Assembly: GCA_027492585.1 (NCBI GenBank)
Contig: JAPUEK010000090.1
Coordinates: forward strand, 62,001 to 126,000
DNA: 64,000 nucleotides
Source: Paracoccaceae bacterium
GTDB lineage: Bacteria; Pseudomonadota; Alphaproteobacteria; Rhodobacterales; Rhodobacteraceae
Direction of reading: 5' to 3'
Position numbers and translations under genes: made by a program. Positions 1 through 50,585 of this stretch are shown piece after piece (the first letter of the stretch is position 1; each line of letters starts with the position of its first letter). The notes beneath the pieces were generated by a model. It was not told the origin of the DNA and did no database searches. It saw only the letters and a program-made list of their open reading frames with translations.

Positions 1-89
1 ATTCTTTCCGTGCGATGGTGAGTCGCGAAGCGCCCAGCGATCGGGCTTCGAACTGGCTGAGTGATTCGGCGAGAGTGCGGAGGTGCCCC

Positions 90-320
90 ATGATCGAAGA
101 GAACTGCCATGAAATGCTGCGGGCACGGCTGAGGCTCGCGGGCTCAAGTTTCAGCGCCGTGGCCCGAGAGATGGGCATAAGCCCAGCATCTGTCAGTCTG
201 GTATCTCAGGGAAGGCGCCGGTCAAAGCCTGTCCAACAAGCGCTAGCCGAGAAGCTCGGCACCACGCCCGAGAAAATCTGGCCCGAGCGCTACAGGCAGG
301 GAGGCACCATGACACCCTAA
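90..320 (+). CDS. Ner/Nlp-like helix-turn-helix regulator of the transposon
   Basis: A 76-residue protein that is almost entirely one HTH domain. The segment SAVAREMGISPASVSLVSQG (residues 23-42) reads as the HTH, and the C-terminal TPEKIWPERYRQ is the hallmark ending of the Mu Ner / Nlp (SfsB) family. Ner represses early transposition genes in Mu-like phages, so a role as transposition repressor is inferred. The ATG at 90 is preferred to the in-frame ATG at 15 because GGAGG lies 6 bp before it. It precedes tnsA in the same orientation across a 200-bp spacer, which starts with hairpin-forming C/G runs (about 327-362) that may attenuate transcription. The window begins 89 bp upstream, so the far end of the element is not visible. 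Confidence 0.75.
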   Translation: MIEENCHEMLRARLRLAGSSFSAVAREMGISPASVSLVSQGRRRSKPVQQALAEKLGTTPEKIWPERYRQGGTMTP

Positions 321-519
321 AACAAAGACCCCAAGGGTCAACCCCCGGGGCCCTGCTTTGATTTGTCGATTGGTCCCGACGAGTCAAAGCATCCCAAAAC
401 CTGCACTCGATGTCAACGACCGGCGTTCATGCGCGTGTCGATGGCGTTGCTGTGCCTGCCTTTGCCGCGATCGCCCAGTCCCGGGCGGTCGCCAGGTGAA
501 CAATTGTCAGGGATGTGAC

Positions 520-1047
520 ATGAATCCTTCCTTCCGTTTCCCGGTTCTGGCGCTCGCCAGCCGGACCATTCCGGCGCGCTCGAAGGCGAGTTCCCGTGTG
601 CAGGTCGTCGACAATCGACCTTTCCTGCCGCAGCCGGTCATCAAGCGCTTGGAATCTTCGCTGGAGGCGCATTGCCACGATCAACTGGTCGCGGACCCCA
701 ACGTGCGAGAGATCGAGGCACAGCCGCCCGCGATCACCTATCGCGATGGACGGGGCAGGCCTGCCACACATGTCTTCGACTTTCTGGCGAGAACCCTTGA
801 TGGCCAAAGGCTCGCCATCGCGGTGCGGCCGCTCGCACGGGTTCGCAAGTGGCGGTTCGACGACACCCTCAGGCTGATCGCCGCACAGATACCCCGTTCC
901 TTTGCGACACGGGTCGTGCTCTTCACCGATGCCGATGTCCCGCGCCCCGCGGTTGTCCCCCATGCGCCGACCACGCTTCTGATCGAGCGTGCCCGGGAAC
1001 TGGGCGCACCGATGATCCCATCCTTAATGCACATGATCATGATGTGA
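520..1047 (+). CDS. tnsA: TnsA-like endonuclease subunit, active site degenerate
   Basis: A 175-residue protein matching the TnsA N-terminal nuclease layout: an acidic helix (RLESSLEAHC, E45/E49), then DPNVREIEAQPPAITYRDG, then FDF (D87), then a strand ending in IAVRP. In Tn7 TnsA cuts the 5' ends of the transposon, with E, D and a Q/E-x-K motif as catalytic residues. Here E and D are kept, but the last motif reads A101-V102-R103, so the lysine is arginine and its partner is alanine. The protein lacks the usual C-terminal TnsC-contact domain length (Tn7 TnsA is about 270 aa). The ATG at 520 has AGGGA upstream. tnsB follows after 10 bp. Identification rests on motif order and operon context; loss of catalysis is inferred. 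Confidence 0.75.
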   Translation: MNPSFRFPVLALASRTIPARSKASSRVQVVDNRPFLPQPVIKRLESSLEAHCHDQLVADPNVREIEAQPPAITYRDGRGRPATHVFDFLARTLDGQRLAIAVRPLARVRKWRFDDTLRLIAAQIPRSFATRVVLFTDADVPRPAVVPHAPTTLLIERARELGAPMIPSLMHMIMM

Positions 1048-1057
1048 GGAAGCCATC

Positions 1058-3190
1058 GTGAAACAGCAAAACTTCAGCGCTCTAGACCTCTTCGTCATCG
1101 ATGGTGCCCAGTACCGTCTCGTGTCTTGCGAGCCGGGCGGGATCGTCCTGTCGGCAGCAGAGCCTCCGCATCCCGTTCGCAGCATCACTCATGATGACCT
1201 GACCAGATTGCTTCGCACTCCAGGGTTTCGGTACATTCCCCGTGGCGCAACCCGCGCGGTGTCGGAGCGGAATCTCGGCGGGTTTCCGGAGCACTTCCGG
1301 GATCTGCCAGATGACAAGCGCAACATCGCGCTGTGGCGCCGTGAATTCGCAGAGGAACTCCTGTCCTGCTACCAGACGGGCCTGGCCAGGCGCAATGAAC
1401 CATCGGTTGCGAAAGTCCTCCAGGCTATCATCACCGCTGTAGAAAGCCGTCTCCGCCAGCGACGGAGAGGCCAGTGCAAGAGGGCAGGACGCATCGAGAC
1501 CAATCGGACGCCACCTTGCGCGAAAACCGTCCTCATCTGGGCGCGAACCTACGAGAAAAGCGGCTTCGATATCATGTCCCTGGTTCCGACAACCCATCGA
1601 TGTGGGCGGCGGGAACGGATGATGCCGGGCGAACTTGCAGCATTCGAGAAGCTGCTCGCCGAATACGCGACGCCGCTCCGGCCGACCATCAGTCAGATCC
1701 ACGAACGCGCCACGAACCTCTATGCCGATTTCAACAGGGAGCGGGCAGTCCAGAAACTGGCCGAGTTGCGGGTTCCCTCCCGCTCCGCAGTCTACAGAGC
1801 CATAAAGCGGCTTGATCCATATGAGACCTGCCTTCAGCGCGAGGGTGTCGATGCCGCCAACAAGAAGTTCGCGATCGTCGAATACGGCGTTCAGGCCCTT
1901 CGGCCGATGGAACGCGTGGAGATCGACGAATGGGACATCGATCTTTTCGCCCTGGTGTCGAAACCGGGGCTCCTCGACCAGTTGACGAAAGATGAAGCCG
2001 CCATCCTTCAAGCGGTGCGGCTTGTCGTATGTGTCGTCATCGATTGTGCGACCCGCTGCATCGTCGGATTCACGCTGTCCAGATCCACCTCCTCGGAGGC
2101 CGCGATCCGGGCAATGGAAATGGCGACAATCGACAAGACATCCATCGCGATGAGCTTCGGGTGTCGTGCCGGGTGGCATCAGGGCGGGCGACCGGAAACC
2201 CTTGCCGCCGATCAGGGATCGGCATTTGTCAACGGTGATTTCAAGATCACTTGCGCCGGACTGCTCACCCGCCCGATCAACCCGCCGGCCGGTGTCGCAA
2301 AGCTGCGCTCGCGCATCGAACGCCTGTTCGGAACCTTTGCTTCCCATTTCGTCAGCCGGTTCCGGGGCCGGACCTTTTCCGATCCAGTCCGGCGCGGGGA
2401 GTATGCCTCCGAGGCCGAGGCTTCACTGACCGAGCAAGACCTGCTGGGCGCTTTCGTGACCTATATCGTCGATGTCTACCATCAGCGCCAACACGCAGGT
2501 CTTGGTGGAGAGTCCCCGGCCCAGTGCTGGGACAGGCTGGTCGCAAAATATGGGCTTCCGGCCCCGGTCGATGCGATGGACCGCAGGGCAATCTTCGGGG
2601 TTGAGCTGGAACGCACCATATCCGGACGCGGTGTCCGCGTGTTCGGGGCGGACTTCTCCTGCGAGGCGTTGAGGCAGGCATACAAGCACAACCACCAGCG
2701 CAAGCTGCGCCTTCGGTTCGATCAGATGGATCTCGGCTGGATCGCCGTCGAGGTGAACGGCATCTGGCATCCGGCATATGATCTGTCTGGCGCGCTCTCC
2801 GGCGTGTCTTTCTACCAGTGGTCAGCTTTCGCGAAAACCGTCATGGCGGCCAATCGCGAACAGGCCGCCATGACCGCCGGGATCTACCATGACGGTCTGC
2901 GCCGCCTTGAACTGCTCTCGGTGGAGGCGGCCAATGCGGCACAGCTTGGCCGAATGACGCTCTCTGCAGAAGAACTCGACAGGGCGGAGCGGACGCTTGG
3001 CCTGGGCCTGCACTTCCTGCCGTCCGATGCGTCGGCGCAAGCTGCGGCGCCGTCCAACTGGCTGGAAGGGGGGGTCGAGGTCGGTGCACCGGACGCTGGC
3101 GATCCTGAAAATCCATCTCCGCCTGAAGCGCCTCCTGCTGGCGAGCCCCCGATGCAGGGCAAGGGCTGGAGGTTCGATGATGAAGAATGA
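1058..3190 (+). CDS. tnsB: TnsB-like DDE transposase
   Basis: A 710-residue transposase, about the size of Tn7 TnsB (702 aa), that would bind the element ends and carry out 3'-end strand transfer. The rve/RNase H-fold core carries D290 (VEIDEWDID; D293 is the alternative), D385 (AADQGSAF) and E421 (RSRIERLFGTF). The 35-residue gap between the last two makes it a D,D35E enzyme. An N-terminal DNA-binding half precedes the core, a Mu-type C-terminal beta-barrel follows, and the last ~40 residues are Pro/Ala/Gly-rich, as expected for the flexible tail that contacts TnsC. It starts with GTG after GAGGAA. tnsC begins inside its 3' end, suggesting translational coupling. Confidence 0.9.
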   Translation: MKQQNFSALDLFVIDGAQYRLVSCEPGGIVLSAAEPPHPVRSITHDDLTRLLRTPGFRYIPRGATRAVSERNLGGFPEHFRDLPDDKRNIALWRREFAEELLSCYQTGLARRNEPSVAKVLQAIITAVESRLRQRRRGQCKRAGRIETNRTPPCAKTVLIWARTYEKSGFDIMSLVPTTHRCGRRERMMPGELAAFEKLLAEYATPLRPTISQIHERATNLYADFNRERAVQKLAELRVPSRSAVYRAIKRLDPYETCLQREGVDAANKKFAIVEYGVQALRPMERVEIDEWDIDLFALVSKPGLLDQLTKDEAAILQAVRLVVCVVIDCATRCIVGFTLSRSTSSEAAIRAMEMATIDKTSIAMSFGCRAGWHQGGRPETLAADQGSAFVNGDFKITCAGLLTRPINPPAGVAKLRSRIERLFGTFASHFVSRFRGRTFSDPVRRGEYASEAEASLTEQDLLGAFVTYIVDVYHQRQHAGLGGESPAQCWDRLVAKYGLPAPVDAMDRRAIFGVELERTISGRGVRVFGADFSCEALRQAYKHNHQRKLRLRFDQMDLGWIAVEVNGIWHPAYDLSGALSGVSFYQWSAFAKTVMAANREQAAMTAGIYHDGLRRLELLSVEAANAAQLGRMTLSAEELDRAERTLGLGLHFLPSDASAQAAAPSNWLEGGVEVGAPDAGDPENPSPPEAPPAGEPPMQGKGWRFDDEE

Positions 3191-4157
3191 GGAGGGGACA
3201 GCCGCCCGGCAGGCGGCCCAGATGGCAGTGTCTTTGCGCAGGCACTTCCTAGCCCATCCGGGCTACGACACGGTGCAGCGGCTTTTCCGCAAGCTGATGG
3301 ACAAGCGACAGGCCGAACTCGAACTCGGCCTGACATCGGAAGGTCGCGGGATCGCGGTCATCGGTGAATCCGGCAGCGGCAAGACCACCGCGATCCAGCG
3401 GATACTGCGCCGCCTCGACGCCGCAGATGCCGGGGCTGGCGAACTCCGCTGGATCTCGATCCGGGTGCCGACACCCGCAACCCAGAAGGATCTGGCTAGG
3501 GCGATACTGCATGCTCTGGATTTCCAGATCCTGCGCGACACCACGGCATCACGCATGTGGGACCTGGTCAGTTTCCACCTCCATCTGCGGAAATGCTGGC
3601 TGATCCATCTCGATGAGGGGCAGGAGCTCGGTGGCCGGGGCTCGGAGGTCGAGAAGGCTGCGGTCATCAATGCCTTGAAGAGCCTCATGCAGATTCGGGA
3701 CTGGCCGACCAATCTCGTGATCAGCGGCACGCCGGAACTGCACGACCTGCTGATGCAGGATCCGCAGCTGTCCCGTCGCCTTTTCGTCGTCCACTTCCTG
3801 CCTGTGACCGAGCTCGACTCTCGCGACGAAATCGCCCTCACGGTCACACGCTATGCGGAGCTGGCGGGCCTGTCACAGGCACCGGATCTGGCGGATGTGG
3901 AGTTCGTGCCGCGCCTGATCCATGCAGGCCGCGAGCAGTTCGGCATCGTGGTTGAGCTGATCATCGGAGCGATCACCCGTGCCCTCGCGGCTGGTGAAGC
4001 TGCCTTGAGCGTCAAGGATTTCGCGCATTTCTACGCCGAGCGCACCGGGGATGTCTCCGGCAGGAATCCTTTCATCGTTCCGGACTTTCGCAATGTTCAG
4101 ACCGGCAGGTCGGCCCTCGTGGCTGAACCTCAGGTCAGGCGCAAACGGGGGAGGTGA
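3177..4157 (+). CDS. tnsC: TnsC/TniB-like AAA+ ATPase transposition regulator
   Basis: A 326-residue AAA+ ATPase that would link the target selector (TniQ) to the transposase. Walker A is GESGSGKT at residues 63-70, Walker B is LIHLDE with D146-E147, and the sensor-like LVISGTPEL follows at about 182-190. This is the TniB/TnsC arrangement. GGAGG at 3168-3172 is 4 bp before the ATG at 3177 and 7 bp before the in-frame ATG at 3180; either could be used, and both overlap the tnsB end. The stop is one base before tniQ, so tnsABC-tniQ is a single tight operon. At 326 aa it is much shorter than Tn7 TnsC (555 aa) and closer to Tn5053 TniB. Confidence 0.9.
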   Translation: MMKNEEGTAARQAAQMAVSLRRHFLAHPGYDTVQRLFRKLMDKRQAELELGLTSEGRGIAVIGESGSGKTTAIQRILRRLDAADAGAGELRWISIRVPTPATQKDLARAILHALDFQILRDTTASRMWDLVSFHLHLRKCWLIHLDEGQELGGRGSEVEKAAVINALKSLMQIRDWPTNLVISGTPELHDLLMQDPQLSRRLFVVHFLPVTELDSRDEIALTVTRYAELAGLSQAPDLADVEFVPRLIHAGREQFGIVVELIIGAITRALAAGEAALSVKDFAHFYAERTGDVSGRNPFIVPDFRNVQTGRSALVAEPQVRRKRGR

Positions 4158-4158
4158 C

Positions 4159-5628
4159 ATGACCTTTCCTGCACCGCATCCACGCGAAACCATCGCCTCC
4201 TACGGCTATCGCATCGCGAAACTGTCAGGCCTCTCCGGCCTGCCAGAACTGGCCCATCTCTTCGATCTGGACCTGCGCGCCCTGCTGATGGGCGATCCTC
4301 TCAGCCTGAAGCGCCTGGCGGACTATACCGGCTGCGATGCGCAAACGCTGGCCAAGGGTGCCCTCGACGCCAGCAATCCGCATCGCCTGCAATTGGGTGC
4401 CGACCGGCGCAACAGGGTTCAGTGCTGCCCGCACAGCTTCCGGTTCTGCCCGGCCTGTCTGGACGGACTGGCCGATGGTGATCTCCGCACTGCTTGTCTC
4501 GGGCGGACGGACTGGCTGGTGGATGCAAACCATGTTTGCGCCGGGCACGGCATCCGGCTCATCACGATCTCGCCCCACAAGACCGGGCGGGTTCATCGGG
4601 ATTTGTCACCGATGATCCCCAGGCTGCTGGCCGCACAGGCCATGCCATGGCAGGCAAGCCAGCCCACCAGGCTGGAACGCTATCTTGCCGAGAGACTGGA
4701 CGGGGCACACACCGAACGATGGATCGACGGAGTTCAACTCGATGTTGTCGTCCACACTGCCGAGGTCTTCGGGGCGATGGCGATGCGCGGTCCCAAGGCC
4801 GATTGGAAGGGCATATCTTCTGACGAGCGTCGGGAGCACGGCCATGTCGGGGCAGAGGTGCTGGTCGGAGGGCCGGCGGCGATCAAGGACTTCCTGCGCC
4901 AGCACGTCGGCCGTGGCCGGCTGGGCAACGACTACCACAATGCTTTCGGCCGGGCTTTCAACGAGTTCTACTTCCGCAAGGATCAACCTGCCTACCGCCC
5001 CATCTGCGCGGTTCTGGCAGAATATGTCGGCGAGACGTTCCGCTTCACCGGCCAGGAGAAGGTTTTCGGCATAAGGACCCGGGGCGTCGAGCCTAAGACG
5101 TTGCGCTCCCTCTGCGAGCGGCATGGCATCGGGCTGAAAATCACCGCCCAGGTGCTGAAGGAACAGCATGGCATCTGGCGCTGCGCCAGCCATGAGGTCG
5201 ATCCCGACCTGATCGCCAGACTTGCGCCGATGCTCAAGGGCCTCCTCAACACTGGGGATGCCGCGCGCCATCTCGGCACCAGCATTGATGTGTTCAGGGG
5301 GTTGATCGGTGACGGCTTACTGGTCCCGGACTATCGGTTCAACGACAGGATGGCTGGCTTTTCCTCAACGACGCTCGATGCCTTCCTCACGGAGTGGTGT
5401 GAAGTCGGCAAGATGCCTGGAAAGCGAAGAAGAGGGGATCATACACCTATTTCGATCGTTGCACGCGCGAACAGGGTGCGGGTTTCGCGTCTCCTGATGG
5501 CGGCCAGGGTTGTCGGGAAGGGCCTGTATCGGGATCGCCGGAAATGCGGTCTGGTGGGGTTGTCTATCGGCAATTCTCATGCTGCGGCATTGGTGGAATG
5601 TGCCAGGTCCTGTTCGAAGGCGGGCTGA
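4159..5628 (+). CDS. tniQ: TniQ/TnsD-type target-selection protein
   Basis: A 489-residue protein with the TniQ N-terminal signature (PHPRETIASYGYRIAKLSGL). A zinc-ribbon region follows with C89, C90, H92, C97 and C100, then DANHVCAGHGIRLI, the usual CxxHG.L element. The long C-terminal half has helical, HTH-like segments (RSLCERHGIGLKITAQVL; NTGDAARHLGTSIDVFRGL), as in full-length TnsD proteins that read a specific attachment sequence. GGGGGAGGTGAC lies just upstream of the ATG. It is the last gene before the element terminus at 5871. Which site it recognises cannot be told from this window because only one flank is visible. Confidence 0.88.
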   Translation: MTFPAPHPRETIASYGYRIAKLSGLSGLPELAHLFDLDLRALLMGDPLSLKRLADYTGCDAQTLAKGALDASNPHRLQLGADRRNRVQCCPHSFRFCPACLDGLADGDLRTACLGRTDWLVDANHVCAGHGIRLITISPHKTGRVHRDLSPMIPRLLAAQAMPWQASQPTRLERYLAERLDGAHTERWIDGVQLDVVVHTAEVFGAMAMRGPKADWKGISSDERREHGHVGAEVLVGGPAAIKDFLRQHVGRGRLGNDYHNAFGRAFNEFYFRKDQPAYRPICAVLAEYVGETFRFTGQEKVFGIRTRGVEPKTLRSLCERHGIGLKITAQVLKEQHGIWRCASHEVDPDLIARLAPMLKGLLNTGDAARHLGTSIDVFRGLIGDGLLVPDYRFNDRMAGFSSTTLDAFLTEWCEVGKMPGKRRRGDHTPISIVARANRVRVSRLLMAARVVGKGLYRDRRKCGLVGLSIGNSHAAALVECARSCSKAG

Positions 5629-5676
5629 TTTCGTCTGTGGCCTGTTGGCGCTCGGCCTGGGCCTGGCGGCGCTGGA

Positions 5677-5771
5677 CATCGGAACACGTGCTCCACATCG
5701 GAAGACTTTGCCCCCGGTTGCATGGCTGGACCGCGCCGAGAAGGGGGAGGCGTCACTGCTTCGCATCGGAA
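5677..5771. repeat. CATCGGAA direct repeats inside the transposon end
   Basis: CATCGGAA occurs at 5677-5684, 5696-5703 and 5764-5771, all in the same orientation, in the 240 bp between tniQ and the element terminus. The second copy continues into GACTTT, so the minus strand reads AAAGTCTTCCGATG and shares AGTCTT with the terminus itself. Repeated transposase sites inside the ends are normal for Tn7-like elements, so these may be internal TnsB sites. The match is short and the spacing irregular. Confidence 0.35.
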
Positions 5772-5840
5772 AATGAAACTCATGGCAATCGTCGTTAAAT
5801 AGGCTGGCCAAAGTCCATGGTTTCGTTAAGATTCCGACGG

Positions 5841-5871
5841 GGAACAGAGCAAGACTCTCTGAAATTTCACA
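5841..5871 (-). repeat. Tn7-like transposon terminus (tniQ side)
   Basis: Read on the minus strand from 5871 this 31-bp segment begins TGTGAAATTTCA and continues through AGTCTTGC to GTTCC. It has the TGT...ACA terminal trinucleotides of Tn7-like elements. The AGTCTT core resembles the AAAGTCTT core of Tn7 TnsB sites as I remember them. It lies 213 bp after the tniQ stop and is the likely boundary of the element. It is a near-perfect inverted partner of 5877-5909, with 20 of the first 23 positions identical. Confidence 0.75.
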
Positions 5872-5876
5872 CCCGC

Positions 5877-5909
5877 TGTGAAGTTTCACAAAGTCTTGCC
5901 TTTTGTTCC
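5877..5909 (+). repeat. Second Tn7-like terminus, inverted and 5 bp away
   Basis: Begins TGTGAAGTTTCA on the plus strand and runs through AAGTCTTGC to GTTCC, mirroring the terminus at 5841-5871. The five bases between the two ends (CCCGC, 5872-5876) equal the target duplication length of Tn7-like transposition. A weaker AGTCTT-like site, GTCTTGACC, occurs about 130 bp further in, at 6008-6016. I read this as the outer end of another, now decayed, element of the same family, or as a junction between tandem copies. Confidence 0.65.
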
Positions 5910-6099
5910 AAAAGGTGGCCCTTCCGGCGGGGTCGTGGGCCTTTCTGGCTGAGTTTTCCAGGCAGATCGCCTTGGCGCAGAACTCCCAGACTTGAAGGCT
6001 GATCAGCGTCTTGACCGGCCAGGTCGATAAGGCGGTCAGTGCTCGCCGCTCGGATTTTCCCTTTCTGTGTGGTGCCCCCGAAAGCTACTGCTCGGACGC

Positions 6100-6328
6100 C
6101 GCGCCGCCCTTCGTCGGCATGATTGCCGGGGACAAAGCGGCCCGTTGTTGCATGTCGTGCATGGTCATGCACAACTGCACCCATGGCCGAGATCCCGCGA
6201 ACGTATGCCAACATCCGCTTGACGCCTTCATCGGGGTTTGGGCCTGCGCTGGCGGTCCATGTTGTCAGCGCAACAATCGTATCCAGGATCATCAGCCGCA
6301 CAGGCTTGTCGGGACTGCCGCGTTCCAC
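6100..6328 (-). pseudogene. Possible AAA_25 (RepA-like) ATPase remnant
   Basis: On the minus strand the reading frame beginning near 6328 gives PVRLMILDTIVALTT, then NPDEGVKRMLAYVRGISAMG, AVVHDHARHATT. This resembles the Walker B strand and the following 'VVHHTGK' strand of RepA-like hexameric helicases of mobile elements. No Walker A and no continuous family-like sequence follow. The 5910-6454 interval otherwise shows no convincing gene and is best read as decayed mobile-element DNA between the second terminus and the next intact gene. The similarity is judged by eye, so confidence is low. Confidence 0.3.
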
Positions 6329-6454
6329 ATTGTCCTTGGCCCGAAGGATCGAGGGCGCAGCCCGTGTCCGGCGATTGACCTGCCTTCTCCCGATGCTCTA
6401 ATCAGGAGAAAACAAGCCGCGCCGGAAAGGCGCTGCGGGCAGGATGGGCGCAAG

Positions 6455-7636
6455 ATGCAGGAATGGAGCGGGGTTCTCCCCCTTGGGCTTCCCGAGGCGC
6501 GGATCGAGCGGATCAACGGTGCGCTGTTACGTCCGCCGCGCGAGGAAGACATGCGCGGGCTGCGGCAGGGCTGCGGCACCTTCCGCCCCGATGGAACGCC
6601 GGTCGCCGAGGCGCAGACGCGATCCTCCGACGGCGATCTGGCGCTTGCGGTGGAGCCGCCTGCCCCGCCGCTCAAACGGCGCGCGGGGGCCTGGCTCTAC
6701 GGCGGGCTGCTCTTTCACCATTTCGGCCATGCGCTGATCTATTCGGTCTCGCGGCTCTGGGCGGTGCGGGCGCTGCTTGATCAGGGCGTCCCGCTGCAAG
6801 GCGTGCTCTTCTACCAGCGTTTCAACGCCGAACCGCAGCAGAGCCCCGCGCTCACCCGCCATGCCGCGACGATCTTCGACATCTTCCGACCCGATGTGCC
6901 GCTCGCCACGACAGCAGAGCCGGAGGAGATCGAGACGCTCTACATGCCAAGCCAAGGCATCTCCACCCTGCCGGAGCTGTTCATCGGCCTGCCCGAGCAG
7001 CGCCGTTTCTACCGCGACAGCACCGCCCGCATCGCCCCGAACGCCGCCCCGCGCGACATCTATGTGTCGCGCACCAAGACCGGCTGGAAGGGCAACCATC
7101 TGTTCGAAAAGGAAATCGAACGGGTTCTGGCTGCGGCGGGCTATCTGGTCTTCCACCCCGAGTTTCATTCGCTGGAGGAACAGATCGCCACCTACCGCTC
7201 CGCCCGCCGGCTGATCGCGGTGGATGGCTCGGCGCTGCATGTGGTGGCGACGGCGGTGCCGGAGACCGCCCGCGTCGCCATCCTCTCGCGGCGGGAATTC
7301 TTCGCCTGGGCCATCGCCGACCAGATCCGCGCCTTCGCCGGCTGCGAGGTGCGGGTGATCGAGGCGCATGGCGATGTCTATGCCTTTTCGCGCGGCATGG
7401 GGCGCCATTCGTCCTGGTCCACCACGCAGGTCACCACGGATTTCGCCCATCTCGGCTCGGAACTGCTGCGGCTCGGCTTTCTCGACCGCCCGGCTGAATG
7501 GCACCTGCCCACCGAGCAGGATCTGGCCCTGCGTTTTGCCGAGGCCAAGGCCAAGATCGGCGACGATCTGATCCCGGTCCCCGACCACATCCGCCCAAAG
7601 GAACCGCATTTCGGGGCGCATCGTCGTCCGGGCTGA
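6455..7636 (+). CDS. Glycosyltransferase family 61-like (DUF563) protein
   Basis: About 393 residues. The C-terminal two thirds fit GT61/DUF563 proteins of bacterial surface polysaccharide loci: GHALIYSVSRLWAVRAL, IYVSRTKTGWKGNHLFEKE, then HPEFHSLEEQIATYRSARRL followed by VDGSALHVVA. The typical family core 'hPE.lsl.eQi..f..a..iig.hGsal.n' is clearly recognisable. No signal peptide, so it should act in the cytoplasm, transferring a sugar to a growing glycan; donor and acceptor are unknown. The reading frame is open upstream to 6011, but that part looks like scar DNA, so the ATG at 6455 was chosen; its upstream GGATGGG is only a fair ribosome site. It is the first intact gene outside the transposon. 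Confidence 0.7.
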   Translation: MQEWSGVLPLGLPEARIERINGALLRPPREEDMRGLRQGCGTFRPDGTPVAEAQTRSSDGDLALAVEPPAPPLKRRAGAWLYGGLLFHHFGHALIYSVSRLWAVRALLDQGVPLQGVLFYQRFNAEPQQSPALTRHAATIFDIFRPDVPLATTAEPEEIETLYMPSQGISTLPELFIGLPEQRRFYRDSTARIAPNAAPRDIYVSRTKTGWKGNHLFEKEIERVLAAAGYLVFHPEFHSLEEQIATYRSARRLIAVDGSALHVVATAVPETARVAILSRREFFAWAIADQIRAFAGCEVRVIEAHGDVYAFSRGMGRHSSWSTTQVTTDFAHLGSELLRLGFLDRPAEWHLPTEQDLALRFAEAKAKIGDDLIPVPDHIRPKEPHFGAHRRPG

Positions 7637-7804
7637 CCCTCGCGCTCCCGCTGCAATTGTAGCGCAATCTGCAACAAGTTCAGAAAATCTGCACCCTTCC
7701 GCTTGCAGGATCGGGGGGTTCTTTGGTTTTCTTGAACCACGTCACAGGGTTGGCAGCAGACCGGCCGGGCGCAACGAGAACAAAAACAAGTATTGAGGTG
7801 GCAG

Positions 7805-8701
7805 TTGCAGATCTTCGGACATTGCCGATTTTCCTGGTATGGGATTTCGGACACCGGGCGCGAGATTGCGGACGAGGCGGATGCGAGGGCGCGGCTCTGG
7901 CACGCCCAGCGTATGGCGATCCGGTTTCATCTTTTCGAACAGTTGATGCTGCCGAGCCTTGCAGCCCAGACCGACAGGGATTTCACCCTTCTCGTGACGG
8001 TCTCGGAGGACATGCCGGAGGTCTACCAGACCCGGCTCGATGCCGCCGTGGCCGGTCATTCCTTCGTGCGGATGAACCGCACCCTGTCGCGCGACTATGC
8101 CAGGCTGATCGTGCCGTTCATGCAGGAAACCACCGAGGGCGGAACGGTGCGCTCCGCGCATTTCCGGCTCGACGATGACGATGCCCTGCCCGCGACCTAC
8201 ATCGAACGTCTGCGCCGCGATGCCGAGCGGGTCGATACCGGCGGTCTCGTCTGCTACCCCTACGGCGTGCTCGGCTTTCTCGACGGGCAGCGCCCGCGCC
8301 ACGGTTTCCGGCACATTTCCTATCACGCGCAGGGCCTGGCCCGGATCGCCGGGCCGGGGATGCTCCGCTCGCCGCTCCACATGCAGCACAAGCAGATGGG
8401 CCAACTGGTGCCGAGCTATGTGGACCCGACCTTCGTCGGCTACCACTTCACCCAGCACGGGGTGAACAACACCAAGGGCTATGGCGCCACCGTCCACCGC
8501 GGCGGCGCCGATGAGCGGCTGGTCAAATCCATGGAGCGCGGCAACCCCGAACTGGCAGACGGCGCCGACGCCCCGGTGAAATGCGATGAGACGATGGCGG
8601 AGGTTTTCCCCTTCACCACCGGCCCCGCAATCCGGGCGATGCTGGCCGCAACCACGGAGCCGGAACGTCTGGTCGAAACCTACGGCTTCCCCGAAGCCTG
8701 A
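7805..8701 (+). CDS. Putative rhamnosyltransferase (Rhamno_transf, DUF3118 family)
   Basis: About 298 residues matching the family whose members begin with 'qiiGlcRFSy'; here QIFGHCRFSWYG. RLDDDDALPATYIERL at about 120-135 is the acidic DDD motif that would hold the nucleotide-sugar and metal. No ATG exists near the N-terminus. The TTG at 7805 is chosen because GAGGTGG ends 4 bp before it, placing GAGG at the right distance; the upstream TTG at 7793 has no such site. The stop is 13 bp before the SGNH-like gene. It probably works with the adjacent GT61-type enzyme on a cell-surface glycan. Confidence 0.7.
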   Translation: MQIFGHCRFSWYGISDTGREIADEADARARLWHAQRMAIRFHLFEQLMLPSLAAQTDRDFTLLVTVSEDMPEVYQTRLDAAVAGHSFVRMNRTLSRDYARLIVPFMQETTEGGTVRSAHFRLDDDDALPATYIERLRRDAERVDTGGLVCYPYGVLGFLDGQRPRHGFRHISYHAQGLARIAGPGMLRSPLHMQHKQMGQLVPSYVDPTFVGYHFTQHGVNNTKGYGATVHRGGADERLVKSMERGNPELADGADAPVKCDETMAEVFPFTTGPAIRAMLAATTEPERLVETYGFPEA

Positions 8702-42782: not shown

Positions 42783-43651
42783 GCCTCGGGGTCGTGCTGC
42801 TGGGCGGCCTGCAAGGCAGCGCCGCCCCGACCCCGCAGCCCGGCTTTCTTGGCAAACGTGTCTGGTCCATGCCGGACGATCCGCTCTTTGGCGGGTTTTC
42901 TGCCATTCATGTCTCGGCGGACGGCAAGACCTTTACCGCCCTTTCGGATCGCGGCGGCTACCTGACCGGGATCTTCACCCGCGACGAGAAAGGCCGGATC
43001 AAGGGGATTTCGGCCAGCAGGGTGGCGCTGCTGAAGGGTCTGGGTGAGGAACCGCTGGCCCATGGCCGCAACGACAGCGAGGGCATGGCGGTCGCCGCCG
43101 ATGGCACCACCTACATCTCCTTCGAAGGTGCGGCCCGCGTGCTGCGCTACCGGCGGCTCGACGGGTCAGCCGAGAACCTGCCCGAACACCCGGATTTTGC
43201 CCGGATGCAGAGGAATTCCGCGCTCGAAACCCTCGCCATCGACCGGCAGGGCGTGCTTTACACCATCCCCGAACGCTCCGGCGGGGAGCGCAAACCCTTC
43301 CCCGTCTACCGCTTCCGCAAGGGCGTGTGGGACAAGGAGCTGAGCATCTCCCGGTCCGGCGGCTTTCTGGTCGTCGATGCCGATGTCGGTCCTGACGGTC
43401 GGCTCTATGTGCTGGAGCGGCGGTTTCTCGGCCTTGCCGGCTTCGGCTCGCGGCTGCGGCGGTTCGAGATGGGCAAGACGCTTCACGCCGAGGAGGTGCT
43501 GATCGAGACGGCGAGCGGGCTCTACGACAATCTCGAAGGGCTGTCGGTCTGGCGGGACGGTGACGGGCATCTGACCGCCACCATGATCTCGGACGACAAT
43601 TTCAGCCCGCTGCTCGTCACCTCCATCGTGGAATACCGCCTGCCGGACTGA
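42755..43651 (+). CDS. Esterase-like/phytase-like secreted protein
   Basis: A 298-residue beta-propeller-type protein of the 'esterase-like activity of phytase' family (PF13449 type). The signal peptide is RRRAFLAVSLGVVLLGGLQGSAA. FSAIHVSADGKTFTALSDRGGYL, NDSEGMAVAADGTTYISFEG, ALETLAIDRQGVLYTIPER and DNLEGLSVWRDGDGHLTATMISDDNF are the propeller blades with the family's acidic calcium-type loops. Enzymatic activity is not established. It starts within mepA, suggesting coupled expression of two envelope proteins. Confidence 0.83.
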   Translation: MRRRAFLAVSLGVVLLGGLQGSAAPTPQPGFLGKRVWSMPDDPLFGGFSAIHVSADGKTFTALSDRGGYLTGIFTRDEKGRIKGISASRVALLKGLGEEPLAHGRNDSEGMAVAADGTTYISFEGAARVLRYRRLDGSAENLPEHPDFARMQRNSALETLAIDRQGVLYTIPERSGGERKPFPVYRFRKGVWDKELSISRSGGFLVVDADVGPDGRLYVLERRFLGLAGFGSRLRRFEMGKTLHAEEVLIETASGLYDNLEGLSVWRDGDGHLTATMISDDNFSPLLVTSIVEYRLPD

Positions 43652-43678
43652 GCCGGGACGGAGCGGGACGGCCGGACG

Positions 43679-43707
43679 TTGACCTTGCGCGCCCCCGGCG
43701 GTAAATC
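43679..43707 (+). promoter_or_regulatory. Candidate promoter of the queuosine-precursor transporter
   Basis: TTGACC (43679-43684), 17 bp spacer, TAAATC (43702-43707). The -35 is good and the -10 weak. It is 77 bp before the ATG. A preQ1-type aptamer was looked for in this leader and not recognised. Confidence 0.35.
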
Positions 43708-43784
43708 CGCGTGTCCCAAAGGCGATCCCGCCTCGGGTCCCCATCCAACCAAGTCTCCGCGACCTTGTAAAAAACGGAACCGAT

Positions 43785-44405
43785 ATGAAAACGCTTCTTC
43801 CTGGCAGCCTTGCCATGGCCATCATCGTCGTGGCCTCCAACATCCTCGTCCAGTATCCGATCGGGCAATGGCTCACCTGGGGGGCGTTCAGCTACCCCTT
43901 CGCCTTCCTCGTCTCCGACCTCGTGAACCGCTTTCAGGGGGTTCAGGCCGCGCGCCGGGTGGTGCTGGCGGGCTTTGCCGTGGGGCTTGTCTGCTCGGCC
44001 ATCGGCACGCAGATCATGGGGGAATTCGGGCCGCTCGTGACGCTGCGGGTCGCGCTCGGCTCCGGTCTCGCCTTTCTGGTCGGCCAGCTTCTCGACGTGA
44101 CGCTCTTCGACCGGCTGCGCCGTTCCGCCTGGTGGCGGGCGCCGTTCCTGTCCACCCTGCTCGGCTCGACCGCCGATACGCTGATCTTCTTCAGCGTCGC
44201 CTTCTCGGCCACGCTGATCTGGCTGGAGCCCGCCAATGACGTGTCCTGGGCCGGGGTTCCGGTGCCGCTCCTCGGCTTTGGGGCGGAGGTTCCCTTGTGG
44301 GTTTCGCTCGGTCTGGCGGATTGGATGGTCAAGCTTCTGATAGATCTTCTGGCACTGTTGCCATTTCGCCTTGCCATCGCAAAGTATGCTGCAAAGCTTG
44401 CGTAA
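43785..44405 (+). CDS. Queuosine precursor transporter (VUT/YhhQ family)
   Basis: A 206-residue membrane protein with six hydrophobic segments. IIVVASNILVQYPIGQWLTWGAFSYPFAFLVSDLVNRF is the VUT-family opening, RVALGSGLAFLVGQLLDVTLFDRLR and LLGSTADTLIFFSVAF follow, and SLGLADWMVKLLIDLLALLPF closes it. Homologues take up preQ0/preQ1 for queuosine in tRNA. AACGGAACC precedes the ATG. The stop is 56 bp before the perfect Shine-Dalgarno element described next. Confidence 0.87.
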   Translation: MKTLLPGSLAMAIIVVASNILVQYPIGQWLTWGAFSYPFAFLVSDLVNRFQGVQAARRVVLAGFAVGLVCSAIGTQIMGEFGPLVTLRVALGSGLAFLVGQLLDVTLFDRLRRSAWWRAPFLSTLLGSTADTLIFFSVAFSATLIWLEPANDVSWAGVPVPLLGFGAEVPLWVSLGLADWMVKLLIDLLALLPFRLAIAKYAAKLA

Positions 44406-44475
44406 AAACTTTTGACAAACACAAAATCTGTGTCACGCTCCCCCTATCGGCAACCATTTGAAAGGAGGTGATCCA

Positions 44476-44532
44476 GTGTCTAGAGTGATATTGGAGAAGC
44501 GTGTCGGGACAGTCATGGGGGGTGTTTTCTAG
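44476..44532 (+). CDS. 18-residue leader peptide before arfB
   Basis: GTG start 7 bp after AGGAGG, reading MSRVILEKRVGTVMGGVF, then TAG. The ribosome site is about as strong as possible while the ORF is tiny and its stop sits in a stem-loop, a layout typical of leader peptides that sense translation. A real small protein is the alternative. No family recognised. Confidence 0.5.
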   Translation: MSRVILEKRVGTVMGGVF

Positions 44533-44604
44533 GGGCAGTCCCCTGGGCAACAAACCACTGATTGGGGTGATCACCTAACTGACCCCATCTCCTTGAACTC
44601 GGGA

Positions 44605-44639
44605 AGGGTTGCCGCACACCGGCAGCCCTTTCTCTTTTT
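44605..44639 (+). terminator. Intrinsic terminator before arfB
   Basis: Stem AGGGTTGCCG / CGGCAGCCCT (one G-T pair) with loop CACAC, followed by TTTCTCTTTTT. This is the clearest factor-independent terminator in the window. It ends the short RNA 60 bp before arfB, so it either separates the genes or attenuates arfB. Confidence 0.85.
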
Positions 44640-44698
44640 GGCCGGGCCACATGGCCCGCCCCCTTGTGGAGCGCCCCCTGCCGGGGCAGATTTTGTCT

Positions 44699-45121
44699 AT
44701 GCTGTGGATCACCGAAACCCTGTTTCTCGCCGATTGGGAACTCACGGAAAGCTTCGTCCGCGCCTCCGGGCCGGGGGGGCAGAACGTCAACAAGGTCTCC
44801 ACCGCGGTCGAGCTGCGCTTCGAGGCGGAGCGGTCGCCGCATCTGACCCCCGCCGTCAAGGCACGACTGAAGAAGATCGCCGGGCGGCGGTGGACACTGG
44901 AAGGCGCCATCGTGCTGCAGGCCGAGGAAACCCGCAGTCAGGCCCGCAACCGGGAATTGGCGCGGGAGCGGCTTGCCGAGATGATCCGTGCCGCGCTCGT
45001 GGCGCCGAAGCGGCGGATCGCCACCAAGCCGACGCTCGGCAGCCAGCGGCGGCGCATTGCGGCCAAGGCCCTGCGCGGCGAGGTGAAAGCCCTGCGCGGC
45101 AAACCGGGGGAAGAGGAATGA
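44699..45121 (+). CDS. arfB: Peptidyl-tRNA hydrolase ArfB (YaeJ), ribosome rescue
   Basis: A 140-residue release-factor-like hydrolase. The catalytic GGQ is residues 26-28 in SGPGGQNVNKVSTAVELRF, and the basic C-terminal tail (RRRIAAKALRGEVKALRGK) is the part that enters the empty mRNA channel of a stalled ribosome. It frees ribosomes stuck at mRNA ends without a stop codon. The ATG at 44699 gives the normal N-terminus MLWITETLFLADWELTESFVRA. It overlaps the phosphotransferase gene (ATGA) and follows a leader-like RNA with a terminator. Confidence 0.92.
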   Translation: MLWITETLFLADWELTESFVRASGPGGQNVNKVSTAVELRFEAERSPHLTPAVKARLKKIAGRRWTLEGAIVLQAEETRSQARNRELARERLAEMIRAALVAPKRRIATKPTLGSQRRRIAAKALRGEVKALRGKPGEEE

Positions 45122-46035
45122 CCCTTGCCGAGGAAGCCACAGCCCTTTGGGGTGGCCGGGTGCTGCGCCTGATCCATGAGCGGGAAAACGCGGTCTATGA
45201 GATGGCCCTGCCTAAGGGGCGCGCGGCCCTTCGCCTGCACCGGGCGGGCTATCAGGAACCCGCCGCGATCCGGTCGGAGCTGTGGTGGTGCGCCGCCCTT
45301 GCCGCCGAAGGGGTGGCGGTGGCCGCGGCCCTGCCCTCCCGCTCTGGCGCGCTGCTGGAGCGGCTTTCGACCGGGCGTCTGGCTTCGGCGATCGCCTGGG
45401 TCGAGGGGGAGCCGCTCGGTCAGGCCGGGGTGCCGTTCACCCGGCCCCTGCCGGAACTGCTGCGTCTGCATCAGGCGCTCGGGCGGCTTCTGGCCGGGAT
45501 GCACAGGGCCACCGACAGGCTGACCCTGCCCGCCGATTTCATCCGCCCCCGCTGGGATGCCGATGGATTTGCCGGCGAAACCCCCTTCTGGGGCCGGTTC
45601 TGGGACCATCCCGCCGCCAGCCCCGAAGAGGCCGCGCTTCTCAGCCGCACCCGCGCCTTCCTGCGCGAGAGGCTGGCCGAGCCGCGCGATTTCGGCCCGA
45701 TCCATGCCGATGTCCTGCGCGAGAATGTGCTGGTCGCGGGGGAGGCGCTTTCGCTGATCGACTTCGACGATTCCGGTTTCGGCTTCCGGCTTTACGATCT
45801 CGGCACGGCGCTGAGCCAGGATCTCTCCGAGCCACATTACCCCGAGATCCGCGATGCGCTGATCGCGGGCTATGCGGAGAGCCGCGCCGCCGATGTGGAG
45901 GGGGTAGAGCTGTTCATCCTCGCCCGCTGCTGCGCCTCGGTCGGCTGGACCATGCCCCGGCTGGCGCCCGACGACCCGGTGCATCGGCGCCAGATCGCCC
46001 GGCTGGTGGCTTGGGCGAAACGGCTCGGGGTCTGA
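45118..46035 (+). CDS. Aminoglycoside phosphotransferase-family kinase
   Basis: A 305-residue APH/ChoK-like protein. YEMALPKGRAALRLHRAGY gives the N-lobe lysine strand. HADVLRENVLVAGEALSLIDFDDSGFGFRLYDLG contains the catalytic loop (H-x-D-x4-N) and the D of the metal motif (IDFDDSG). It is in the homoserine kinase II/SrkA-like group and may phosphorylate a small alcohol or a Ser/Thr residue. Coupled to arfB by overlapping start and stop. Confidence 0.85.
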   Translation: MTLAEEATALWGGRVLRLIHERENAVYEMALPKGRAALRLHRAGYQEPAAIRSELWWCAALAAEGVAVAAALPSRSGALLERLSTGRLASAIAWVEGEPLGQAGVPFTRPLPELLRLHQALGRLLAGMHRATDRLTLPADFIRPRWDADGFAGETPFWGRFWDHPAASPEEAALLSRTRAFLRERLAEPRDFGPIHADVLRENVLVAGEALSLIDFDDSGFGFRLYDLGTALSQDLSEPHYPEIRDALIAGYAESRAADVEGVELFILARCCASVGWTMPRLAPDDPVHRRQIARLVAWAKRLGV

Positions 46036-46059
46036 GAGATTTGGCGGGTGGTGCGCCTG

Positions 46060-46167
46060 ATGCAGGCGCCGGAGGGATTTTGCACCCCTCCGCCATGCCA
46101 CCGGCCCCTTGAACCGGTGGCGGAGCCAGTGGCAAACCCCGCAGGATATTTGAGGCAAGATGAAAGG
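46060..46167 (+). repeat. REP-like intergenic repeat, copy 6 (long type)
   Basis: Starts with GGCGCCGGAGGGATTTTGCA-type box, then a middle segment with hairpin CCACCGG-N9-CCGGTGG (46098-46120), then GCAGGATATTTGAGG and the purine tail (46141-46167). Copy 9 (55024-55124) is the same long form inverted. It lies between convergent genes. Confidence 0.83.
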
Positions 46168-46189
46168 GGGGGCGATCTAAGGGCCGGGG

Positions 46190-47482
46190 TTAGACCTGAA
46201 CCTCCTGCGCGACTTGCTTGCCGACGCCGAAGACGCGCTTGTAACGCGCGATCTCGTCCGCCGGTCCCATGGCCTTGTTCGGGTTGTCCGACAGCTTCAC
46301 CGTCGGGCGGCCATTGGCCGAAACCGCCTTGCAGACGAGGCTGAAGGGCGCCAGCCCGTCGCCCGGCACGAGGCCGCGGAAGTCGTTCGTGAGCATCGTT
46401 CCCCAGCCGAAACTGACCTTCACCCGGCCGTTGAACTGGGCATAGAGCCGCTCGATCTCCTCCACATCCAGCCCATCGGAGAAGATGACGAGCTTCGAGC
46501 GCGGGTCCTCGCCGCGTTCCTTCCACCAGCGGATCGCGGTTTCCGCCCCCGCCGCCGGATCGCCGCTGTCGATGCGGATGCCGGTCCAGCTTGCCAGCCA
46601 GTCGGGCGCATTGCGGAGAAACCCTTCGGTCCCATAGGTGTCGGGCAGCATGATCCGCAGGTTGCCGTCATGCTCCTCATGCCAGTCGGCGAGCACCTGA
46701 TAGGGCGCCTGCGCCAGCTCCGCATCGGAATTGGCGAGCGCCGAATAGACCATCGGCAGCTCATGGGCATTGGTGCCGATCGCCTCGATGTCGCGGCGCA
46801 TGGCGATCCGGCAGTTGGAGGTGCCGGTGAATTTCGCCCCGAGCCCTTCCTGCATGGCCTGCACGCACCAGTCCTGCCAGAGGAAGGAATGGCGGCGGCG
46901 CGTGCCGAAATCGGCGATCTTGAGCCCGTCGATCTGGCGCAGCCGTTCGATCTTTTCCCACAGCCGCGTCATGGCGCGGGCGTAAAGCACCTGCAGCTCG
47001 AACTTGCCGAGCTTGCCAAGAACCGCCCGGCTCCGCAGCTCCATCAGCACGGCGAGCGCGGGGATTTCCCAGAGCATCACCTCCGGCCAGCGGCCCTCGA
47101 AGGTCAGCTCATATTGGCCGTCGCGCTTTTCGAGATGGTAGGCGGGCAGGCGCATCCCCTCGAACCATTCCATGAAATCGGGGCGGAACATCTGGCGCTT
47201 GCCGTAGAAGGTGTTGCCGCGCAGCCAGGTGCTTTCGCCGCGCGTCAGACTAAGCGAGCGGACGTGATCGAGCTGTTCGCGCAGCTCCCCCTCGTCGATC
47301 AGCTCGGCGAGCCGCACTCTGGAGGAGCGGTTGATCAACGAGAACTCCACCGTCGTTTCCGGCTTGTTGCGGAAAATCGACTGACACATCAGCAGCTTGT
47401 AAAAGTCCGTGTCGATCAGCGATCTCACGATCGGGTCGATTTTCCAATTGTGGTTGTGGACCCTTGTGGCGATATCGACCAT
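46190..47482 (-). CDS. pncB: Nicotinate phosphoribosyltransferase
   Basis: A 430-residue enzyme, normal length. [17 protein letters not shown] is the family N-terminus, [19 protein letters not shown] the catalytic region with the phosphorylated His, [14 protein letters not shown] and TYGTEGFL bind PRPP, and [14 protein letters not shown] and [10 protein letters not shown] line the active site. It makes nicotinate mononucleotide in NAD salvage. Its start overlaps the 3' end of the upstream kinase gene by 58 bp, so the two are translated from one message with pncA. Confidence 0.95.
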
Positions 47483-49788
47483 GGCGACCCTCCCTCTTCC
47501 GCCTCATCTAAGGCAAGTCCGGGGGAAAGGTCAAAATGATCCCTCTCTGCGGCGATGCGGGTGAGAAGGGCGTAAAGCTCCGCCCGCGCGAGGGGTTTGG
47601 TCAGCACCCCGTCCAGCCCTGCCTCAAGACAGGCCGCTTCCTGATCGGCGGAGGAATAGGCGGTCAGCGCATGGATCGGGCAATGCCGCAGACCCGAGGC
47701 CGCCTCATGGGCGCGGATGGCGCGGGTTGCCTCCAGCCCGTCCATTTCCGGCATGGAGACATCCATAAGCACCAGATCGGGCGGCTTGGCGCGATACATG
47801 TCCACAGCACTCCGGCCATTCGCCGCCTCGGCCAGTGTTGCGACCGAGCGTTCGAGCAGTTTTCGGGCGATGAGACGGTTGGTGCGGTTGTCCTCGGCCA
47901 GAAGCACATGGAGCCGGGTTTCGGGAACAGGCGCGCGGGCAGGTTCCGCCGGAAGCGGTGTTTCCGCAACGCGGCTGAGGCGGATGGTCAGGGTGAAGAC
48001 CGAGCCTTGACCCAGCACCGAAGCCACCTCGATGTCACCGCCCATCTGCTGCGCCAGAAGGCGGGAAATGGTCAGCCCCAACCCCGTGCCACCGAACTGC
48101 CGCGAGATGCCCGGATCGGCCTGGGTGAAGCTTTCGAAGACATGGCCGATCCGGTCCGCCGCGATGCCGATGCCGGTATCCGCAATGGCGATCCGCAGAA
48201 TGTCCGGCGCCTCCCCCGCCTCGACCCCGGCTTTCCCCCCGGCGGACGGAGGCGCTTCCGGATGAATTCCCAGAACTGCGCTCACCTGGCCCTCGGCGGT
48301 GAATTTCACCGCATTGCCGATGAGGTTCAGCAGGATCTGCCGCAGCCGTCCGGCATCGCCCCGGTGGCGCGGCAGGTGCGCCGGAATCTCGGCCGAAAGG
48401 GTGATGCCCTTGGCCCGCGCCGTCGGACGCAGCAGGTCGAACGCGCCGGTCAGGCAATCGGCCACGGCAAAGGGCTCCGCCCGCAGTTCGGCCTTGCCCG
48501 CCTGGAGCTTCGACAGGTCGAGCACATCGTTGATCACCGTCAGCAGCGCACGGGCAGAATCGATGATCGTGCCGGTATACTGGCGCTGCGTCCGGTCGAG
48601 CTTGGTATCCTCCAAGAGCTCCGCCACGCCGATCACCCCGTTCATCGGCGTGCGGATCTCATGGCTCATCGTGGCCAGAAACTGCGATTTTGCCTGCGCG
48701 GCCGCCTCCGCCTCCTGCCGGGCCTTGGCAAGCTCCGCGGCATGGGCCTTGGCTTCCGTCACGTCACGTTCCACGGCGATGAAGACCTCCGGGCTGCCGT
48801 CGGGGCGCAGCACCGGGGTCATCGACACCTCCATCCAGATGAGCTGGCCGTCCCGCCTCCGGTTGCGGAGTTCCAGCCGGCAAGGCCGCCCTTCCTGCTG
48901 GGCGCGGCGCAGCGTGGCGAGCGCATCGGCCGAAGTGTCCGGCGCGTCGAGCAGGGCGCTCGGGATCTGGCCGACCGCTTCGGCAAAACTGTAGCCGGTG
49001 GTTCGGGTAAAGGCCTCGTTCACCCATTCGATGCGGCCGTCGGGGCGGGTGAAGATCACGCTGTCATTGGCGTGCCGGGCGACGAGCGCCAGCCGTTCCG
49101 CCTTGCGTGCCGCCTCTGAAAGACGGGATTGCGCCGTCCTGAGCGCCGACTGCTCCTCCAGCAGGGCGCGCTCGAAGCGCACCCGCTCCGCCTGACCCTT
49201 TTCGACGGCACTGATGAACAGGGTGGCCGTATAGGCGATGATCAGCATGGCGAGGAGGAAGAACCATTCGCCGGGAACCGGATGCTCCAGATTCTCCCAC
49301 AGATCGTAGCCGAGCATCCCCGCCCCGGTCATGGCATAAACGGCGATGCGGGCGTGGGTGCCTTCGGGGAAATGGCGACGCACGAGGCCGGCATTGATCA
49401 CGGCAGCCATGAGAAAGGCGGCGGCGAAGATCCGCGCCTCCGCCACGGGGATGAAGCGCCAGCAGAGCGTGACGCAGGCGGCGATGGTCAGGCCCTGCAC
49501 CGCTGCCGTGATCGCCGCCATCCGCCGGGCAAGCGCATCGGTCCGTTGCCGGTGCAGGAGGTGATGGAGGAGCAGGCAATCGACAGCTTCCCCGCCCACG
49601 GCCATCAGCACGGCGGCAACCCCCATCCATGGCGCCCCGAGGGCTGCCAGCGTCGCCGCCCCCACCCCGGTCATCACCTGCCGCGCCAGAAAATCCCGGG
49701 TGCGGCCCCGCGCATAGCGCAGGAACAGCCCGCCGGGACTGTTCCTCTCCAGAAAGATCTGCATGGCGCTGCCGACGCCTTCGGTCAT
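47425..49788 (-). CDS. Hybrid sensor histidine kinase
   Basis: A 787-residue protein. The N-terminal ~180 residues hold about six membrane segments. A PAS domain follows ([31 protein letters not shown]), then HisKA with [16 protein letters not shown], HATPase_c with [23 protein letters not shown] and GTGLGLTIS, and a C-terminal receiver domain with [10 protein letters not shown] and [12 protein letters not shown]. No HPt or output domain. The ATG at 49788 has AAGGGG upstream. It lies between pncA and pncB on the same strand and overlaps pncB, so its signal may concern nicotinate metabolism, by context only. Confidence 0.92.
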
Positions 49789-49865
49789 CCCTTTCCCCTT
49801 CGCTTGCCGCAGGGGCAAAGCTAGGGCCAAAGGGTTAAGGCGCGGTAAGCAGGATCACGCCCGGA

Positions 49866-50474
49866 TCAGGCGGCCCAGATCACCCCGGCGGCGAGGGTCT
49901 TTGCCCGCGCCTCTGCCAGAGAGCCGTTGAGGTCGATGGCCCGGCAGGCCCCTTCGAGCAGTGTCACCCCGAAGCCGAGCCTTGCGGCATCGAGCGCCGA
50001 ATAGGCGACGCAGAAATCGGTGGCGAGCCCGGCAAGCACCAGCCGCTCCACCCCTCTCGTCCGCAGATAGCCTTCGAGCCCGGTGGGCGTGCGGTGGTCG
50101 TTCTCGAAGAAGGCGGAATAGCTGTCGATGGCGGCGCGGAAACCCTTGCGGACGACAAGCTGCGCGGGATCGGTGGCGAGGCCGGGATGGAACTCCGCCC
50201 CCGGGCTGCCCTGCACGCAATGGGTCGGCCAGAGCACCTGCGGGCCGTAGTCCATCTCCGTGACAGAAAAAGGCGCGGCGCCCGGATGATTGGCGGCAAA
50301 GCTCGCATGGTCCGCCGGATGCCAGTCCTGGGTCAGCACCACCACCCGGAATTCGCGCATGAGCGCGTTTATGCGGGGAATGATCTCGTCTCCACCCGCC
50401 ACGGCAAGCGCGCCACCGGGGCAGAAATCATTCTGGACGTCGATGACGATGAGGGCTTCGGTGGCAGGGCGCAT
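49866..50474 (-). CDS. pncA: Nicotinamidase
   Basis: A 202-residue cysteine hydrolase of the isochorismatase fold. The catalytic triad is D12 (VIDVQNDFCPGG), K (VVRKGF) and C (LATDFCVAYSALDA), and metal ligands D and H lie in TQDWHPADHASFA. It converts nicotinamide to nicotinate, the substrate of PncB encoded downstream on the same strand. The hybrid kinase starts 77 bp after its stop. Confidence 0.93.
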   Translation of the reverse strand: MRPATEALIVIDVQNDFCPGGALAVAGGDEIIPRINALMREFRVVVLTQDWHPADHASFAANHPGAAPFSVTEMDYGPQVLWPTHCVQGSPGAEFHPGLATDPAQLVVRKGFRAAIDSYSAFFENDHRTPTGLEGYLRTRGVERLVLAGLATDFCVAYSALDAARLGFGVTLLEGACRAIDLNGSLAEARAKTLAAGVIWAA

Positions 50475-50585
50475 GGCGGTCTCCGTTCCGGTTTGCCCAT
50501 GGGTAGGGCGCAGGGGGCCTCCGGTCAATCGGCTGTGACAGCGCGGCCCCTTGCCGGGCGGACGGCTTTGGCCTAGCGCTTTGCC

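Follow-up and report, generated by a model that had tools for sequence, protein, structure and literature searches.

Facing Tn7-like ends suggest serial insertion of transposons at one site beside a tRNA-Pro(CGG) gene in Paracoccus and its relatives

How do two transposon termini come to face each other across exactly 5 bp? Such a pair lies at positions 5841-5871 and 5877-5909 of the 64,000-nucleotide stretch analysed here (the window; C90:62001-126000 of a 4.14-Mb draft genome), with 20 of the first 23 positions identical and CCCGC (5872-5876) between them, an arrangement described in the earlier note that we could reproduce exactly. We call the tRNA-proximal end of an element LE and its distal end RE, a naming by analogy to Tn7 that is a convention. 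The RE terminus, on the minus strand, reads TGTGAAATTTCAGAGAGTCTTGCTCTGTTCC (the reverse complement of 5841-5871), and the LE terminus at 5877-5909 reads TGTGAAGTTTCACAAAGTCTTGCCTTTTGTTCC. Scanning the whole window for facing pairs with at least 20 of 23 identities and a spacer of 0-20 bp returned this single pair, and the same scan of 5 Markov surrogates returned none. Allowing up to 3 mismatches, the 23-bp terminus consensus occurs three times in the genome, each time with zero mismatches and on contig C90, namely at C90:44705 (+), C90:67871 (-) and C90:67877 (+), which we designate LE1, RE and LE2.

LE1 and RE bound element A (C90:44705 to C90:67871; 23,167 bp), the former lying 17.3 kb ahead of the window start. 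The terminus of the RE is conserved among 13 REs of 11 genomes, and a further site-like motif is found ~65 bp inward of it. Four genes of the element all read toward the RE (plus strand). A predicted tnsA-like endonuclease gene (358-1047) gives Pfam Tn7_TnsA-like_N at E 5.5e-4 (20.9 bits, below the 26.5 cut-off) and NCBIfam TnsA_like_Actin at E 5e-8, likewise below cut-off; it is kept upstream of tnsB in relatives, and both position and conservation fit TnsA. The DDE transposase gene tnsB (1058-3190) has rve and Mu-transpos_C matches that both fall just under the Pfam cut-off, while its family profile, searched against the PDB, finds type I-F3 CAST TnsA-TnsB fusions (E 3.5e-32) and Tn6677 TnsB (2.3e-21). 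The AAA+ regulator gene tnsC (2997-4157; TniB E 2.3e-17, AAA_22 E 4e-16, VchTnsC in the PDB E 6.8e-7) is followed by the target selector gene tniQ (4051-5628; Pfam TniQ E 1.4e-15), the product of which has homologues of 60-76% identity in Paracoccus but no PDB relatives by sequence search; the true starts of both genes are probably further in than 2997 and 4051, respectively. A TnsB DDE transposase, a TnsC AAA+ regulator and a TniQ/TnsD selector, together with TGT...ACA termini and 5-bp duplications that are perfect pairs in P. cavernae and in genomes G467, G439, G460 and G432, mark the element as Tn7-like. As to features of a CAST, element A contains no 22-mer or CRISPR-type repeats, and none of the ten cargo proteins scanned has a cas domain. 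A search for RNA families in window 1-8000 gave no match.

The cargo of element A (C90:48888-58439) is rich in defence-like genes, among them PtuA and PtuB of a Septu system, a gene for a large AAA_13 ATPase that matches the PADLOC candidate PDC-S06 and one for an nSTAND3 protein that matches PDC-S73. At C90:60500-61679, the genes for an ACT-domain protein and for LysE are inverted relative to the related element of Rhodobacter sp. SGA-6-6, where they lie directly between the LE and tnsA. Elsewhere in the same genome (C17:109863-111115) there is a second TnsB-like gene, 42% identical and apparently split by a frameshift.

What, then, is the sequence on the far side of the spacer? The two left ends form a direct repeat (C90:44702-44967 and C90:67874-68140, the latter being window 5874-6140) that is 92.9% identical over 267 bp, and comparing LE2 itself with the left end of element A, as the earlier note had proposed, gave ~93% identity over 264 bp in the same orientation, with the terminal 33 bp identical. 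LE2 is also 84% identical to the LE of SGA-6-6, an element whose TnsB is up to 94% identical, and remains colinear with it for another 40 bp past the point where LE1 departs; this inner continuation (6135-6178, plus strand) is absent beside LE1, and an inverted copy of it occurs inside element A at C90:61553-61595. LE2 is like LE1 and is colinear further with SGA-6-6, and 5877-6140 (plus strand) is therefore a left end belonging to another element, B. No right end for B was found at a reasonable score in the rest of the window, nor was its body found. LE2 is separated from a GT61 glycosyltransferase gene by some 260 bp of unassigned sequence (6180-6440), an interval in which the part of element B that has been lost may once have terminated. 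A minus-strand ORF at 5867-6328, part of which falls in the interval, has no Pfam match. The flanking GT61 gene was tried as a guide to the empty chromosomal site and abandoned, its neighbourhood not being conserved at the tRNA-Pro of relatives.

The insertion site itself can be read from related genomes. The LE of SGA-6-6 and of P. cavernae, and that of 11 out of the 13 Paracoccus genomes searched, lies directly past tRNA-Pro(CGG), 9-10 bp from its CCA end, a fixed distance that holds in 13 genomes but not for the displaced local LE1. SGA-6-6 has an intact tRNA-Pro(CGG) followed by ATTT-CCCGC-LE (a long CRISPR-like repeat array with the translated repeat SLPAWERGSK lies upstream of both tRNA and element, at L013 ~300-6500). 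In relatives that lack an element the tRNA-Pro is often followed by ATTTCCCG(C/A), many empty relatives have ATTTCCCGC or ATTTCCCGA past the same tRNA-Pro, and the window's own genome retains native ATTTCCCGC past its intact tRNA-Pro at C90:34930-35006. Since CCCGC is found past tRNA-Pro in unoccupied relatives, the CCCGC between RE and LE2 is native target sequence, identical to the bases 5-9 bp past tRNA-Pro(CGG), and represents the 5-bp target duplication; and since the 5 bp vary between genomes, the position of insertion is set by the tRNA and not by the 5 bp.

The left side of element A is less tidy. The earlier note had expected its left end to share the terminus and to be flanked by CCCGC; the terminus of LE1 does match, but the flank is AGCGC and the left CCCGC copy is missing. 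LE1 is also displaced: instead of following the intact tRNA at 9 bp, it is found 46 bp beyond a 48-bp fragment that duplicates the 3' end of tRNA-Pro. The intact tRNA is separated from element A by a 9.6-kb island (C90:34930-44658), which has a 48-bp copy of this 3' end on either side and carries a minus-strand tyrosine integrase gene (C90:43118-44458), and the arm between the tRNA-Pro fragment and LE1 is similar to what flanks the intact tRNA-Pro in G046. In the simplest reading, integration and loss of islands probably replaced the original left-side tRNA-ATTT-CCCGC. The expectation of a CCCGC flank was too strict here, because eight of eight other genomes agree at both flanks (see below), CCCGC is native and the left side is rearranged. 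With that side displaced, the local history of insertion would be supported through the relatives.

A TniQ search of 125 Paracoccus genomes identified ~15 with proteins 55-75% identical, and end mapping located the RE in 11 genomes. Nine of these 11 have another Tn7-like end within 4-5 bp of the RE. The facing end belongs to the same family in seven (the window's own genome, P. cavernae, G474, G460, G480, G467 and G439) and to a second family in two (P. caeni and G432). In all eight of the other genomes with a facing end, the spacer has the same 5 bp as those that precede the first LE on its tRNA side, with one-base slips in three. P. cavernae, for example, reads tRNA-Pro-ATTT-CCCGA-[LE...RE]-CCCGA-[LE-like]; left and right 5 bp are likewise CCCGA/CCCGA in G467, TCCCT/TCCCT in G439, TTCTT/TTCTT in G460 and CCCGT/CCCGT in G432, and the slipped cases are G480 (AGACT/(A)GACT), P. 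caeni (CGGTT) and G474, in which four successive elements or ends have ATGTT at or near each junction. G460 has three stacked elements or ends, the last with an 8-bp spacer. The single-insertion control G046 reads RE-CCCGA-island DNA with no facing LE, and in G495, which also lacks a facing end, the two flanks differ (CAGTG, AGTCG). The second Tn7-like family, with ends TGTGGATTGCCACTAAAGTCTTCC, shares this tRNA-Pro site in P. caeni, G474, G432 and G477, and in P. caeni its tns genes lie beside the first element (G421:C3 27881-35620).

Stacked LEs in most arrays are alike over their first 26-46 bp only, the closer pairs being those of the window's own genome (93%) and G439 (89% over 101 bp). 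By comparison, the second LE of G474 is 99% identical to that of P. cavernae and the second LE of G480 is 94% identical to the first of G460. As most stacked LEs share just ~35 terminal bp, we take them to be separate arrivals and not copies. The complete second elements of G474 (8 kb; oriented 42807-50866) and G460 (31 kb; G460:C2 ~1163359-1194795) have both ends and no recognisable tns genes; they have either decayed or moved in trans, and are possibly non-autonomous.

Taken together, these comparisons suggest that an older relative, B, very probably already occupied the attachment site at the 3' end of tRNA-Pro(CGG) when element A, which uses that site too, entered immediately beside the left end of B. 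The earlier note had likewise suggested that one Tn7-like element went in right next to another's end, duplicating 5 bp; the tRNA-Pro(CGG) target, which could not be seen from the letters it had, is what confines all insertions to one position. Directly apparent from the sequences compared are the constant position and shared orientation of the elements, their termini, the agreement of the 5 bp within arrays and the mixture of lineages. TniQ presumably recognises the tRNA gene and would guide TnsABC to a constant position a few bp downstream of the 3' end of that gene, with the LE always toward the tRNA. The attachment sequence of Tn7-like elements survives insertion (PMC11406308), and because the recognised sequence would survive here as well, a newcomer would be expected to use the identical insertion point and so to come to lie between the tRNA and the element already there, which is the presumed order of insertion. 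The same 5 bp would then be duplicated again to give tRNA-4 bp-TSD-[LE_A...RE_A]-TSD-[LE_B...].

Alternatively, the locus might be a tandem duplication or dimer of one element, arising by insertion from a sister chromosome or as a cointegrate, with most of the second copy since lost. The earlier note had also allowed for a tandem copy, and the close match between LE1 and LE2, including their identical terminal 33 bp, would fit it, as would the similarity of the two LEs in G439; against this, the colinearity of LE2 with the SGA-6-6 element extends beyond that of LE1, and in most other arrays the stacked ends are of clearly different lineages, sharing ~35 terminal bp and matching the LEs of other genomes better than each other, so that we regard such an origin as improbable. 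The possibility that 5877-6140 is no transposon end at all and instead a native chromosomal target resembling an LE draws on its place directly past the target duplication, with chromosomal genes ~300 bp on, but it is hardly credible given that unoccupied tRNA-Pro loci of relatives lack a similar sequence and that, in SGA-6-6 and many Paracoccus, tns genes follow inward of its homologues. Tn7-like elements do have second, less specific pathways (PMC11406308), and the disagreement of the local left and right flanks might be taken to mean that A landed beside the end of B by chance through untargeted transposition; finding the same 5-bp arrangement in nine genomes, at the same distance from tRNA-Pro, makes this highly improbable.

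If A did enter against B by targeted insertion, it did so where target immunity is described as strongest, directly beside an existing insertion, although elements that do not cross-react escape it (PMC11702153). Escape could have come about through distinct inner end sequences and through a tRNA-facing end with just one strong site. In a motif scan a single strong site was detected in LEs, and most REs carried a second site, 65 bp further in; from this difference the target-facing end may be the weaker determinant of immunity. The further idea that stacked LEs avoid their own type was dropped, as it found no support (Fisher p 0.31): own-type LE alignments of at least 80 bp number 2 of 11 within arrays versus 26 of 265 between genomes. 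Quite tentatively, and with more doubt than belief, we raise the idea that stacking is the normal mode of life of this tRNA-Pro(CGG) family, in which a single-site end is placed at the target and a repeated-site end far from it, immunity is weak at the point of arrival, an array of cargo islands grows, and tns-less elements can be moved in trans.

These observations define a Tn7-like family with a tRNA-Pro(CGG) site in Paracoccus and relatives, and show that natural genomes commonly accumulate insertions one after another at a single base-pair position, even though immunity is described as strongest right next to a resident element (PMC11702153). The arrays supply naturally paired ends with which the features recognised by immunity can be tested, and illustrate how site-specific transposons build layered genomic islands. 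Similar to Tn7 at attTn7, the family combines a putative TnsA, TnsB, TnsC and a TniQ-family selector (TnsD in Tn7) with TGT...ACA ends, a 5-bp duplication and a fixed insertion beside a conserved gene that is left intact; however, its target is tRNA-Pro(CGG) rather than glmS, no tnsE was found, the tns operon lies toward the distal end, and arrays are common where Tn7 has strong target immunity (PMC11406308). Attachment downstream of a tRNA gene is shared with the type I-B2 and I-D CASTs (which use a TnsD for tRNA) and with type V-K (which uses guides for tRNA) (PMC11406308, PMC10293859), but unlike these tRNA-targeting CASTs, element A has no CRISPR-like repeats or cas gene among the proteins tested, its tnsA-like gene and tnsB are separate, and insertion occurs 9-10 bp past the tRNA instead of the 30-33 nt of CyCAST (PMC10293859). 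Attachment sites at tRNA genes, reached via TnsD/TniQ or guide RNAs, have already been described (PMC11406308, PMC10293859, PMC8649781), and adjacent insertion of Tn7-like elements giving multiple LE and RE has been mentioned (PMC8649781). CASTs insert in tandem at a low level, which immunity serves to avoid, and non-cross-reacting elements allow repeated insertion at one site (PMC11702153). Neither the use of tRNA-flanking sites by Tn7-like elements nor their insertion side by side is therefore new, and what stands out is how frequent stacking is: in contrast to the adjacent and tandem insertions known before, it is found here in most genomes with mapped ends, with the same 5 bp at each junction of an array and with two families mixed.
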